Source of the DNA: a bacterium SCSIO 12741 | Lineage (GTDB): Bacteria > Bacteroidota > Bacteroidia > Flavobacteriales_G > Salibacteraceae | Length of the DNA stretch: 64,000 bases | Assembly: GCA_024398055.1 (NCBI GenBank) | Contig: CP073749.1 | Coordinates: forward strand, 4,340,594-4,404,593 | Direction of reading: 5' to 3' | In this document: positions 3,001 to 47,998 of the stretch, piece after piece | Layout: each line of letters begins with the position of its first letter | How positions within the stretch are numbered: position 1 is the first letter of the stretch | Made by a program: the position numbers and the translations under genes | The notes under the pieces: generated by a model | Told to the model about the DNA's origin: nothing | Databases searched by the model: none | What the model saw: only the letters and a program-made list of their open reading frames with translations

Positions 3001-6000
3001 AAGGTAACCCTCACTGGACAATGATCCCTGGATCCAACAGTGCAAGCTACGACCCAGGTATGTTGACGGAGACTACCTACTTCATCCGTTGTGCTCGGAG
3101 AAGCGGGTGTTCTTTCTACGCTGGGGAGAGTAATGTAATTACTATCGCTGTTAATGATATTCCTTCTGTTAGCCTGGCTTCTAATAATGTTAGTTGTGTG
3201 GCTCCAAATGGTGGATCTATTACTCCTTCCATTTCTGGCGGAACTGCCCCATTCACTTATGCTTGGTCTACTGGTGACACCTCTTCTACCCTTTCTGGGT
3301 TAACTGAAGGTGCTTACTCGCTTACCATCACAGATGCTAATGGTTGTTCGGCCTCTGATTCGGTTAGCCTGAGTCTTCCTACCTGCTGTAACGTAACTGC
3401 TGCTGGAACCATTAGTGGCGATCAGAGCAACTGCGGACCATTCGATCCTACTTCTATTAATAATGCAACTCTTCCTTCTGGTGGGCTGGGTTCATTGGAG
3501 TATGTTTGGTTAAAGAGCGACACGCTTGTACCTAATACTTCAGGTAATCCTCATTGGAAAATGATTCCTGGCTCGAACAGTGCAGGCTACGACCCAGGTA
3601 TGCTGACTGAGACTACCTACTTCATTCGTTGTGCTCGCAGAAGCGGATGTTCTTTCTACGCTGGGGAGAGTAATGTGATTACTATCTCGGTTAACGATAT
3701 TCCTTCAGTTAGCCTGGCTTCTAATAATGTTAGTTGTGTGGCTCCAAACGGTGGTTCTATCACTCCATCCATTTCTGGTGGAACTGCTCCATTCACTTAT
3801 GCTTGGTCTAATGGTGACAGCTCTTCTACCCTTTCTGGGTTGAGCGAAGGTTTATACTCACTCACCATTACCGATGCTAACGGTTGTTCGGCTTCTGATT
3901 CAGTTAGCCTGAGTCTTCCTGCTTGTTGTAATGTAACTGCTGCTGGTACTATCTCTGGTGACCAGAGCAACTGTGGTCCTTTTGATCCTTCAATGATCAG
4001 CAGTGCAACTCTTCCTTCTGGTGGCCTTGGTTCATTGGAGTATGTATGGTTGAAGAGTGATACACTTGTGCCTAACACTTCAGGTAACCCTCACTGGACC
4101 ATGATCCCTGGTTCGAACAGTGCAAGCTACGACCCAGGTATGTTGACGGAGACTACCTACTTCATTCGTTGTGCTCGCAGAAGCGGATGTTCGTTCTACG
4201 CTGGGGAGAGTAATGTGATTACTATCTCGGTTAACGATATTCCTTCAGTTAGCCTGGCTTCTAATAATGTTAGTTGTGTGGCTCCAAATGGTGGATCTAT
4301 CACTCCTTCCATTTCTGGTGGATCTGCCCCATTCACTTATGCTTGGTCTACGGGTGATACCTCTTCTACCCTTTCTGGGTTGAGCGAAGGTGCTTACTCA
4401 CTTACCATTACAGATGTTAATGGTTGTTCGGCTTCTGATTCAATTAGCTTGAGTCTTCCTACTTGCTGTAATGTAACTGCTGCTGGTACTATCTCAGGCA
4501 ACCAGAGCAACTGCGGACCATTCGACCCTACCTCTATTAATAGTGCTACTCTTCCTTCTGGTGGACTTGGGTCATTGGAGTATGTATGGTTGAAGAGTGA
4601 TACACTTGTGCCAAATACCCAAGGTAACCCTCACTGGACAATGATTCCTGGTTCGAACAGTGCAAGCTATGATCCAGGTATGTTGACTGAGACTACCTAC
4701 TTCATTCGTTGTGCTCGTAGAAGCGGGTGTTCCATTTATGCAGGTGAAAGCAACATTGTAACCATTGAGGTATTCTCTGTTCCTTCGGTTCAGCTAAGTT
4801 TAACTAATCCAAATTGTCAAGATACCTTGGCGGGAGCCGCAACGGGAATCGTAACGGGTGGAACAGCTCCAATTCATTACCAATGGAGTGATGGCCAAAC
4901 CTCTGAAAATGCTCAGCAACTTGCCGGAGGTTCATACTCTGTTACGGTAAGTGACGCCAATGGATGTTTCTCTATCGATACCTTTAGTCTGGCAAGACCA
5001 GCTTGTTGTAATGTGACAGCTGCCGGTAATATTGGCAATGATCAGGATAACTGCGGACCTTTTGACCCAATGACCATTCAAAGCCGTTCTCTACCTTCTG
5101 GTGGCGTTGGATCTTTGGAATTTGTTTGGTTGGTGAGTGATACTTTGGTTCCAAATACTCAAGGTAATCCTTACTGGAAAATGATTCCTGGTGCTAACGG
5201 TGCGAGCTATAACCCAGGATTCATCACTCAGTCGAAATACTACATCCGTTGTGCAAGAAGAAGCGGTTGTTCCTTCTATGCCGGAGAAAGTAATGTAGTA
5301 AGTATGATCGTTAATTCTCAGCTGACGGTTTCACTTAATGTAACTAATGTATCCTGTGCCCAACCTACAGGTGGGGAAATCGAAGTAGTGACCACTACCG
5401 GTCAAGCTCCATTCCAATATAACTGGAGTCATGGGGCGTCCACTAAAAAGGTAACTGGTCTTCGTCCTGGTCATTACACCGTAACTGTGACGGATGCTAA
5501 TGGATGTACAACCATGGATTCTGCTTCACTGAGTCTTCCATCCTGCTGTAATGTAACTGCCGCTGGTAAGATTGGAAACAATCAAAGCAATTGTGGGCCA
5601 TTTGATCCATCTGCAATTACCAACGTAACCTTACCTACCGGTGGTGTTGGCTCTCTTCAATATGTATGGTTGATGAGTGATACACTGGTAGCAAATACTA
5701 CCGGTAACCCATACTGGAAAGTTGTGCCAGGTGCTAATAACAGTAGTTATGATCCGGGCATGCTAACGGAAACAACCTACTTCATTCGTTGTGCTCGTAG
5801 AAGTGGATGTTCGGTTTACGCTGGAGAAAGTAACGTGATTACCATTGAAGTAAACGACGTTCCATCCCTAAGCCTTCAAAGTACAAATGTAGATTGCGCT
5901 AACCCTAATGGTGGTTCGGTTACAGCTTCTGTAACTGGTGGAACTGCTCCATTCAGCTACAACTGGTCAACAGGTAGCACCTCCTCTACCCTCTCTGGAT

Positions 6001-46165: not shown

Positions 46166-47212
46166 GTGCTCAAAACAACGCATAAAGTCATCCACCGATC
46201 TGCGCAAAAAATGGAGGAAATCGCAGATGAATCCATCCCCCTGATCGTTACTTCCCCACCTTACCCCATGATAGGAATGTGGGACGAGTTGTTTGTGACA
46301 CAAAACCCTGCCATAAGCACTGCCCTCGAAAAGAACATGGGCATGGAAGCATTTGAAGGAATGCACCAGGAACTGGATTCCGTTTGGCGGGAAGCCTACC
46401 GGGTTTTGCAACCAGGAGGAATTGCAGCAATCAATATTGGAGATGCAACTCGTACTCTTGGAAAAACCTTTCGATTGTATTCCAACCACAGCCGAATCAT
46501 ACAGGCCATGGAAGATCTGAGCATGAGCATACTTCCTTCTATCCTGTGGCGCAAACCAACCAACTCTCCCAATAAGTTTATGGGTTCGGGCATGCTCTCT
46601 CCGGGAGCGTATGTCACCCTCGAGCATGAATTCATTCTACTGTTTCGCAAGGGAGGTAAACGCAACTTTACCTTAGAAGAAGACAAACAACGGCGCCGTG
46701 AAAGTGCCTATTTCTGGGAAGAACGAAACCAGTGGTTTAGCGATCTCTGGGAATTTACAGGTACCCGCCAATCGACTCGAAAATCGGCAGGTCGGGAACG
46801 CAGTGCGGCCTATCCACTCGAACTCCCCTGGCGACTCATTCAGATGTTTTCAGTTATTGGCGATGTGGTTTTAGACCCGTTTTTGGGAACCGGAACCACT
46901 ACCCGGGCAGCCCTCCTTTCAGGCAGAAGTAGCATAGGCTATGAATTGGATCCTGGACTCACCGAAGAGCTTTTCACCGGCGACCTAAACAGCTGGAAAG
47001 GAGAACAAAACGACTGGATTAAAAACCGCCTGCAAAACCACGAAAAATTTGTGGCTCATCGTAAAGAGACCAAAGGCCCGAATGCTTTTAAACACCACCA
47101 TGAAGCCTGGGATATACCTGTTATGACCTCACAAGAAAAAGAGATCAACTGGCCGGCTCTCAAATCGGTGGAATGTATGGCCCAAGAAATCCATTGCCAA
47201 TTTTCCTGGTAA
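46166..47212 (+). CDS. Site-specific DNA methyltransferase (beta class, N4 or N6)
   Basis: A 348-aa protein starting at GTG 46166. The catalytic motif IV is TSPPYPMIGMWDE and the AdoMet-binding motif I DPFLGTGTT follows at the C-terminal side, the beta-class order (IV before I). The region LQPGGIAAINIGDATRT is also characteristic. From memory, TSPPYPMI-MWD is found in N4-cytosine enzymes of the M.MthZI/M.MjaI type that recognise CTAG; this should be checked. Converges with the restriction endonuclease gene 9 nt away, which completes a type II system. Confidence 0.88.
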   Translation: MLKTTHKVIHRSAQKMEEIADESIPLIVTSPPYPMIGMWDELFVTQNPAISTALEKNMGMEAFEGMHQELDSVWREAYRVLQPGGIAAINIGDATRTLGKTFRLYSNHSRIIQAMEDLSMSILPSILWRKPTNSPNKFMGSGMLSPGAYVTLEHEFILLFRKGGKRNFTLEEDKQRRRESAYFWEERNQWFSDLWEFTGTRQSTRKSAGRERSAAYPLELPWRLIQMFSVIGDVVLDPFLGTGTTTRAALLSGRSSIGYELDPGLTEELFTGDLNSWKGEQNDWIKNRLQNHEKFVAHRKETKGPNAFKHHHEAWDIPVMTSQEKEINWPALKSVECMAQEIHCQFSW

Positions 47213-47221
47213 CTTCCGTAC

Positions 47222-47998
47222 TCAATTCTGAAGAGCTAATCTCATTCTATCCAACACCTCGGTATTGAGCAAGGAACCATCGGTTGTGGAGATTATATCA
47301 AACACCTCACATCCAAACAAACGCTTGTAAGCCTCATTTTTCCGTCGATTCGCTTCCCGGGCTTTTATTAAATAAGGCTGATTTCCCTGCTGGTAGCTAC
47401 GTGGCTTTATTTGAATAGCCGCCACCCTCTCTCCGTTTTTAAACATTTCGTAGTCTACCGCATAGCGATGATCAAACTGACCATCGGTGTTTTTCCAGGT
47501 GCAATCCGGAAAGTAGTCAGCCAAACGCTGAAGCGTGTTTTTTTCGCGCAATACAATTCCATTCCAGGTTTGGCCAATAGTTCGGAACCAAACGCAATGA
47601 AAACACTCCATCAAACTCAAGTCACTTCCCTGGCTGAGCATAAATTGATAAAGAACAGCAGCCCGCTCCATCAATTGTTCCTGCGTACGACCATAAGAGG
47701 TGTTAACTCCACGTAAGGAAGGGTCAATTTTGTATACCTCTTTGGGATGGGTTAAAATGAGGCGAAAATTATTTAGCTGCTGCCGTTCTTGCTCAGCTAA
47801 TTCCAGTAATCGGTTATTCCGCAACTCGCCACTTTGGTAATAAAACGCCTCCCAATCTTCTTTGCTGCGAAAGTCGCGGTATACGATCAGTGAGGAAACG
47901 TAGCCTACGCTCCAGGGGTCATTGAGGCGTAATCGGTTCCAAGGTCCATTCGTTGATTCAAACCTGGATTTTTCAAGAGGATTCTTAAAGGCATCCAT
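47222..47998 (-). CDS. Probable type II restriction endonuclease
   Basis: A 258-aa soluble protein. A PD-(D/E)xK-like core is suggested by YAVDYEMFKNGERVAAIQIKP (cited as VDYEMF then IQIKP, about residues 175-198), with conserved TWNGIV and SYGRTQEQL stretches typical of restriction enzymes. It pairs with the methyltransferase in a convergent arrangement. The family is not certain; a CTAG specificity is inferred from the methyltransferase motifs and from the scarcity of CTAG here. AT-content and codon use look like the neighbours. Confidence 0.7.
   Translation of the reverse strand: MDAFKNPLEKSRFESTNGPWNRLRLNDPWSVGYVSSLIVYRDFRSKEDWEAFYYQSGELRNNRLLELAEQERQQLNNFRLILTHPKEVYKIDPSLRGVNTSYGRTQEQLMERAAVLYQFMLSQGSDLSLMECFHCVWFRTIGQTWNGIVLREKNTLQRLADYFPDCTWKNTDGQFDHRYAVDYEMFKNGERVAAIQIKPRSYQQGNQPYLIKAREANRRKNEAYKRLFGCEVFDIISTTDGSLLNTEVLDRMRLALQN

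Follow-up and report, generated by a model that had tools for sequence, protein, structure and literature searches.

Does a methyltransferase gene that faces a nuclease gene on a bacterial chromosome belong to a restriction-modification (R-M) system, and which word of DNA would such a system recognise? The question is raised by a stretch of 64 kb, here called the window, in which a convergent R-M pair that may recognise CTAG had been proposed from the letters alone. Both genes (M, the methyltransferase, and R, the nuclease) are indeed intact, convergent and adjacent at 46166-47998, the arrangement of a type II system, with their stop codons 9 bases apart (Table 1). The GC contents of M (0.483) and R (0.447) are near that of the window (0.449), so the pair is not marked as foreign by its composition. 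The identity of M to the methyltransferase of plasmid pFZ1, the MjaI-like R and the depletion of CTAG support the proposal, and we conclude that the pair is very probably an ordinary chromosomal R-M system of the MthZI/MjaI type whose predicted site is CTAG. In such a system M would N4-methylate the cytosine of CTAG in both strands and R, a PD-(D/E)xK nuclease, would cut unmethylated CTAG in incoming DNA. Long residence together with R, added to any background bias of the lineage, would have lowered CTAG about tenfold, because every missed methylation would risk a break in the chromosome. Two weak hints are in this way turned into a specific prediction, m4C at CTAG.

Table 1. Positions of the gene pair and its motifs in the window, and of one protein from the phage R slot
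Feature	Position	Strand	Basis or remark
M, beta-class MthZI-type DNA methyltransferase, predicted m4C at CTAG	46166..47212	+	348 aa, GTG start
M motif IV, TSPPY, residues 29-33	46250..46264	+	translation; invariant in 6-sequence alignment
M AdoMet motif, DPFLGTGTT, residues 237-245, C-terminal to motif IV	46874..46900	+	translation; 8 of 9 positions invariant in 6-sequence alignment
R, diverged RE_MjaI-related restriction endonuclease, predicted CTAG cutter	47222..47998	-	258 aa
R active-site stretch, D182 ... Q196-x-K198	47405..47455	-	alignments and structure model
Gap of 9 bases separating the convergent stop codons	47213..47221	.	ORF coordinates
130-aa protein, example	L326:6722-7111		

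The methyltransferase and the nuclease of the window

M scores 143.8 bits against the Pfam model N6_N4_Mtase (cut-off, 26.7) and 473.3 bits against MTase_II, the PADLOC model for type II methyltransferases. Its translation contains TSPPYPMIGMWDE, as the sequence-only reading had noted, and TSPPY lies N-terminal to the AdoMet motif, which confirms the beta-class order of the N4/N6 enzymes. The link to the M.MthZI/M.MjaI group, proposed there, was right: M is 49.8% identical to the pFZ1 methyltransferase over query residues 1 to 327 of 348, or 94% of its length, and thus resembles a characterised MthZI-type enzyme nearly throughout. Among 72,556 plasmid records, the matches of M were methyltransferases of Salinibaculum, Natrinema and Methanothermobacter, with 49-50% identity over 94-97% of the length. 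The Methanothermobacter record is pFZ1 itself (NC_001337), on which the methyltransferase gene is followed by a convergent gene annotated as 'MjaI family restriction endonuclease'; we take this methyltransferase gene to be that of M.MthZI. The pFZ1 system resembles the window pair in its beta-class N4/N6 methyltransferase and its convergent neighbouring R. It differs in that it resides on an archaeal plasmid and not on a bacterial chromosome, that its two genes overlap by 12 bases whereas those of the window are separated, and that its R is only 22% identical to the window R in the alignment. M.MthZI is presented as an experimentally characterised 4mC CTAG methyltransferase, with M.BfaI and M.MjaI as characterised homologues according to REBASE, in the available sections of PMC5867850, whose references include a title on the 'plasmid-encoded mthZIM gene' that fits the assignment of the pFZ1 gene. 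An M of this type need not work with a nuclease, since orphan CTAG methyltransferases of the MthZI family are common in Halobacteria (accessible parts of PMC6471742 and PMC5867850). One of them, HVO_0794, is homologous to M.MthZI, is credited with C(m4)TAG methylation and is without a cognate R according to the same part of PMC5867850, whereas the window M has an adjacent one.

R scores 17.8 bits against the Pfam family RE_MjaI (PF09568), below the gathering cut-off of 22.7, and 5.5e-13 against REase_II, the PADLOC model for type II nucleases. Over residues 1-257 it shares 38.0% identity with a protein of the Paenibacillus plasmid pSC2, and it is 37.5% identical to one of a Brevibacillus plasmid, both annotated as 'MjaI family restriction endonuclease' and both above the RE_MjaI cut-off (29.2 and 28.0 bits), so that homology to the family is established through intermediates. 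Since its own score lies under the cut-off and it shares 38.0% with a protein above it, we regard R as a diverged relative of RE_MjaI rather than as a member of the Pfam family. The RE_MjaI profile matched 1 of 14 named control genomes, that of Methanocaldococcus jannaschii. The AlphaFold2 model of R is confident (pLDDT 95.0), and residues 145-258 align to Hjc, VRR_NUC, Vsr and BstEII at Z scores of 5.7-7.9 (best, Hjc at 7.9), all under 8 and weak if taken alone. D182, Q196 and K198 lie on or beside the core strands of the model, which has the PD-(D/E)xK fold with its catalytic acid and xK, and D182 and K198 are invariant in a 34-sequence alignment. Together with the MjaI-like sequence, the model upholds the earlier view of the partner as a PD-(D/E)xK nuclease, and R is, judged from sequence and predicted structure, such a nuclease, related to yet diverged from RE_MjaI. 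Searches with the R sequence in the PDB and NCBIfam gave no match, and neither did Foldseek searches with its model in the PDB and viral structures at E <= 0.001.

The RE_MjaI nucleases of the phylum share with the window R the PD-(D/E)xK core and the pairing with a relative of M; they include tandem M-R loci, and the window R differs in scoring under the Pfam cut-off. In the R tree, the branch of the window R (support, 100/99) holds G197, L093, L129, L205, L206 and the Paenibacillus and Brevibacillus forms. For the window pair a CTAG site is a well-supported prediction. With the window's genome counted, 32 of 395 genomes from the phylum contain relatives of R. The other 31 gave 29 short loci, and 26 of these also hold a relative of M, that of L048 being fragmentary. 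Seen from the side of M, a scan of the genome collection with an M alignment confirmed at least 578 relatives, the best 80 of which were read as loci. An R-family ORF (one only 89 aa) is present in 26 of these 80 loci, M and R being convergent in 21 of the 26, some with intervening DNA; no R was detected in the other 54, for some of which the fetched stretch is short.

CTAG scarcity in the window, the genome and the family

That CTAG is rare in the window had been part of the original argument, and this held both there and in samples of the genome. CTAG occurs 6 times in 64 kb, compared to a mean of 144.3 (sd 10.9) in 100 dinucleotide shuffles, and its ratio of observed to expected counts (o/e) under a trinucleotide Markov model is 0.053 (113.4 expected), the next lowest palindrome being GTAC at 0.67. 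Ten 20-kb samples of the window's genome (G000) contain 39 CTAG sites against 336.3 expected (o/e, 0.116), and samples and window together, 264 kb, contain 45 against 450.3. The depletion is thus about tenfold and is not confined to the locality of the window.

Both components occur together in exactly two of the 35 genomes of the window's family, G000 and G013, whose R-family matches reach 1.8e-69 and 1.2e-48 and whose MthZI-type M proteins score 592 and 582 bits (next best in the family, 45.7 bits). M and R are separated by a further gene in G013. In the G013 assembly, the left neighbour of the window pair is best matched on contig C234 and M lies on C74, so the site of the pair is not common to the two genomes, as far as the fragmented assembly shows. 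Both carriers are poor in CTAG, G013 with 12 sites against 89.3 expected (o/e, 0.134). Family members without the pair have CTAG o/e values of 0.84 (G007), 0.575 (G001), 0.50 (G002) and 0.229 (G003), CTAG being the lowest palindrome also in the last three, and single samples of 3.8-20 kb from 20 such members gave 0.24-1.07 with a median of 0.73. Across the phylum, the median o/e of 29 pair carriers is 0.16 (range, 0-0.52) in samples of 12.9-120 kb, which differs from the 20 pair-less family members with a Mann-Whitney p of 1.3e-8, uncorrected for kinship. Excluded from the 29 carriers are L069 for its weak M match, L086 and L116 for their shortness, L095 as apparently the same contig as G013 by length and match, four loci from Balneolota (L092, L096, L100 and L122, of which L096 was presumptively placed there from its genus), four from other phyla (L094, L105, L108 and L144) and those 18 of the 31 other R-bearing genomes that are without a long stretch. 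The short loci of G047, which has more distant relatives of M, and of G048 contain no CTAG against 6.5 and 4.8 expected, which counts against the CTAG reading.

G003 (L184, L479-L481) reaches its o/e of 0.23 with no match to M or R. In the available text of PMC4687349, CTAG is under-represented in 55.4% of control site-genome pairs regardless of the presence of an R-M system, and R-M is doubted as the sole cause of CTAG scarcity. Because of these control pairs and of the low value in G003, depletion alone would prove little, and the earlier caution that CTAG can be depleted for other reasons was well placed. Within the window's family, extreme CTAG scarcity, whose cause that part of PMC4687349 leaves open, can be compared between members that have a CTAG system and members that do not.

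Several findings count against CTAG as the site: R scores under the RE_MjaI cut-off, the R of pFZ1 is only 22% identical to it, no close relative of R with a measured site was found and CTAG is low in genomes without the pair. They would fit a true R-M system with a site other than CTAG, such as a longer or shifted word, in which R has diverged from the characterised members and CTAG is scarce from another cause, as it is in many genomes without such systems (PMC4687349, in the part available) and in G003. We consider this improbable, given that M is about 50% identical to the MthZI methyltransferase, that CTAG is the single extreme palindrome of the window and that the relatives of R that are without M track the loss of CTAG and not that of CATG. 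These unpaired relatives, found in phages and megaplasmids with almost no CTAG, support CTAG independently as the likely site. Very improbable is an orphan or epigenetic CTAG methyltransferase beside an inactive R, which the haloarchaeal orphans and the 54 M loci in which no R was detected (some stretches short) would suggest, since R is full length and confidently modelled with D182, Q196 and K198 kept and since both carriers in the family are strongly CTAG-poor.

Nuclease relatives in phages and megaplasmids

The relatives of R that stand without M are a more interesting lead than the window pair itself. A viral scan with R alone gave 4 loci, and a wider alignment gave 153 relatives, of which 80 loci were read. 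In the 79 R-anchored viral loci with no MthZI-type M found (L162-L165, L206-L280), CTAG occurs 2 times in 876,184 bases against 2185.9 expected, and 78 of the 79 have none. Other words in the same loci, as seen/expected, were GTAC at 3494/3858, AGCT at 2681/3488, GATC at 851/3171 and CATG at 226/3072; CATG and GATC are thus also scarce, though not uniformly absent, and 40 of the 79 loci are without CATG. Contig L205 (also L168), which has both M and R, holds 6 CTAG sites against 31.5 expected, and L179, an M-anchored viral locus that also has both, holds 8 against 31.0. Viral loci with M and no R contain 326 against 452 expected, with none in 1 of 14 and low counts in several.

In the fetched stretches of the 79 loci no M match exceeded 62.1 bits, whereas MthZI-type methyltransferases score 330-546 in the same search; weak matches to the M model, 24.5-62.1 bits, were found in 11 of the 79. 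That M had been missed merely because of short stretches was examined in the whole records of 50 R carriers (40 of the 80 R-anchored viral loci, 8 other viral loci and 2 plasmids), where an MthZI-type M was found only on the L205 contig (485 bits), with weak matches of at most 43.5 bits in 15 others; for the remaining 40 R-anchored viral loci the absence of M applies to the fetched stretch. A C5 methyltransferase gene and an N6/N4 methyltransferase gene lie near R in L274, and in view of these and of the weak M-model matches some R carriers may have other protection. Many of the viral records may be fragments. Eight contigs of about 30 kb were read whole, and seven are free of CTAG while the contig of L274 (G488) has 2 against 94 expected; direct end repeats of 66-127 bases are present in four contigs, G487, G490, G491 and G492, that is, in three of the eight and in G487.

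The phage R proteins scored above the RE_MjaI cut-off in 5 of 5 cases tested. All 93 viral R sequences (76 distinct proteins) retain D182, Q196 and K198, and dN/dS has a median of 0.055 over 669 non-independent pairs and ranges from 0.01 to 0.57 in 40 disjoint pairs, so that a decaying gene can be rejected. A tree of 74 R proteins places 32 of the 33 phage sequences in a single clade (100/99); the remaining one (L206) and two plasmid R proteins fall on the branch of the window R, with the warning that long branches meet. Because these three lie outside the main phage clade, R has probably come to stand without M on more than one occasion. A tblastn search of 50,697 phage records with three R queries found no R, which leaves IMG/VR contigs as the sole source of the phage form here, and one phage R tested had no match in PHROGs. 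Among 198 genomes of the phylum nothing matched the exonuclease encoded beside the phage R; this empty answer is uninformative on the host. The TerL of L271 has its best relatives in phages of Persicivirga/Nonlabens and Riemerella, which only suggests a host in the Flavobacteriia for that phage.

For the controls, loci were anchored on the neighbouring exonuclease rather than on R, and those with a visible slot were compared. CTAG is absent from the fetched stretches of 10 of 10 such loci with R (0 sites versus 296.9 expected) and of 15 of 42 without R (397 versus 1250.4; Fisher p 2e-4). Low CTAG is common among the R-free relatives (31 of 42), and within these 31 the word is entirely missing from 15, compared to 10 of 10 R carriers (p 0.003). 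The whole records of 40 of the 42 R-free loci were searched and contained no R. When loci, with R-anchored ones added, were clustered by exonuclease identity, the link between R and CTAG was kept at 85% (12 of 13 R clusters versus 1 of 10 R-free) and at 75% (7 of 8 versus 1 of 7, p 0.01). In the pooled loci the presence of R is associated with the loss of CTAG (16 of 16 carriers versus 52 of 136, p 8.6e-7) and not with that of CATG (p 0.76) or GATC; the pooled and clustered counts hold a few contigs twice (L271/L295, L289/L374). The TerL-anchored set alone, with 2 of 2 versus 25 of 72 (p 0.13), is too small. R-M as the cause of all CTAG loss is rejected by the R-free phage loci that have no CTAG and by the low value of G003 without the pair.

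Megaplasmids of Paenibacillus and Brevibacillus (L078, L079, L202-L204; NC_014628.2, CP139434.1) also carry an R of the MjaI family. CTAG is absent from 100 kb of pSC2 (135.0 expected) and from 58.7 kb of the Brevibacillus plasmid (93.8 expected), and the whole records of these two plasmids hold no MthZI-type M. Four sister plasmids without R have CTAG at 64/74.0, 42/66.7, 26/40.5 and 35/46.1 (seen/expected). In a separate observation, the related megaplasmids L461 and L462 (NZ_CP116888.1, CP009417.1) have stretches without GATC (0 versus 159 and 0 versus 129 expected), in which GGCC is almost gone as well (4 versus 48 and 0 versus 32).

The phage R slot and the possible role of the unpaired R

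In four carriers R is flanked by a small conserved gene on one side and a downstream gene set on the other. Ten R-free relatives have other proteins in its place, a protein of 130 aa in seven, a more distant relative of that protein in two and another protein in one. Of 80 exonuclease-anchored loci, 46 encode the 130-aa protein, always in the absence of R; in a wider set of loci the two occur together in 3. Its model has a fold like that of the Hjc resolvase (best Z, 11.3 over 101 residues), with a pLDDT of 84 for the best of five models that disagree. In the pooled loci the 130-aa protein goes with the loss of CATG (51 of 52 carriers without R versus 43 of 77, p 1.2e-8) and is not linked to that of CTAG (p 0.59). 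The CATG association is not significant in the exonuclease-anchored set alone (42 of 43 versus 16 of 18, p 0.21); it stems from the pooling with TerL-anchored loci (9 of 9 versus 27 of 59, p 0.0025) and from the counts after clustering at 75% (6 of 7 versus 1 of 9, p 0.009), and it is a post hoc association in which kinship is handled only in part. Two phage records with the 130-aa protein (L476, L477; OX376641.1, OX376640.1) have no CATG (132 and 127 expected) and normal CTAG; since AGCT, CCGG, GATC and GGCC are likewise at zero and the records are near copies, they give weak support to the CATG link.

The distribution of R suggests a mobile CTAG cutter, of predicted activity, made safe through the loss of its site. 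On this proposal, phages and megaplasmids would carry a CTAG endonuclease without its methyltransferase, would be protected by having purged the site and would use the enzyme on the DNA of the host or of rivals. The place of R would be an exchange slot for PD-(D/E)xK nucleases, the identity of the occupant predicting the purged palindrome (CTAG for R, CATG for the 130-aa Hjc-fold protein). The other methyltransferases in some carriers and the CATG result lead us to treat the proposal as evenly balanced between right and wrong. If it is true, site avoidance would be a licence to carry an enzyme, beyond an escape from host restriction, and a missing palindrome together with a nuclease gene could give a clue, from sequence, to what unknown enzymes recognise.

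A serious alternative, if less likely than not, is that these phages lost CTAG because their hosts often carry CTAG systems and that the phage R is a Holliday-junction resolvase in a resolvase slot. The C-terminal domain of R aligns best to Hjc (Z, 7.9), the Hjc-like 130-aa protein or its distant relative fills 9 of 10 R-free slots, 31 of 42 R-free relatives are low in CTAG too and 40 of 79 R loci are also without CATG, all of which would fit such a resolvase. What speaks against it is that CTAG is missing from every one of the 10 R carriers and from only 15 of the 42 R-free loci, or of the 31 that are low in it, that R tracks CTAG and not CATG or GATC, and that the CTAG-free megaplasmids with R have CTAG-bearing sisters without it. 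Two readings remain, site-specific cutters exchanged in the slot or resolvases in lineages that avoid several words.

Of the two, the CTAG cutter protected by site loss has its nearest precedent found, by analogy, in the chloroviruses, whose restriction endonucleases are thought to degrade host DNA and whose R and M genes are always adjacent (PMC7019647, as far as its available text goes). The likeness lies in virus-encoded restriction enzymes; unlike the chloroviruses, the phages here have R with no MthZI-type M found and almost no sites. The literature search, with most subscription journals and preprints outside its coverage, found no description of an R without M in nearly site-free phages or megaplasmids. 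In the Nonlabens phage P12024L, a VRR-NUC nuclease gene (L478:18339-18680) adjoins a sigma-70-region-2 gene, and this nuclease is possibly a third occupant of the same slot.
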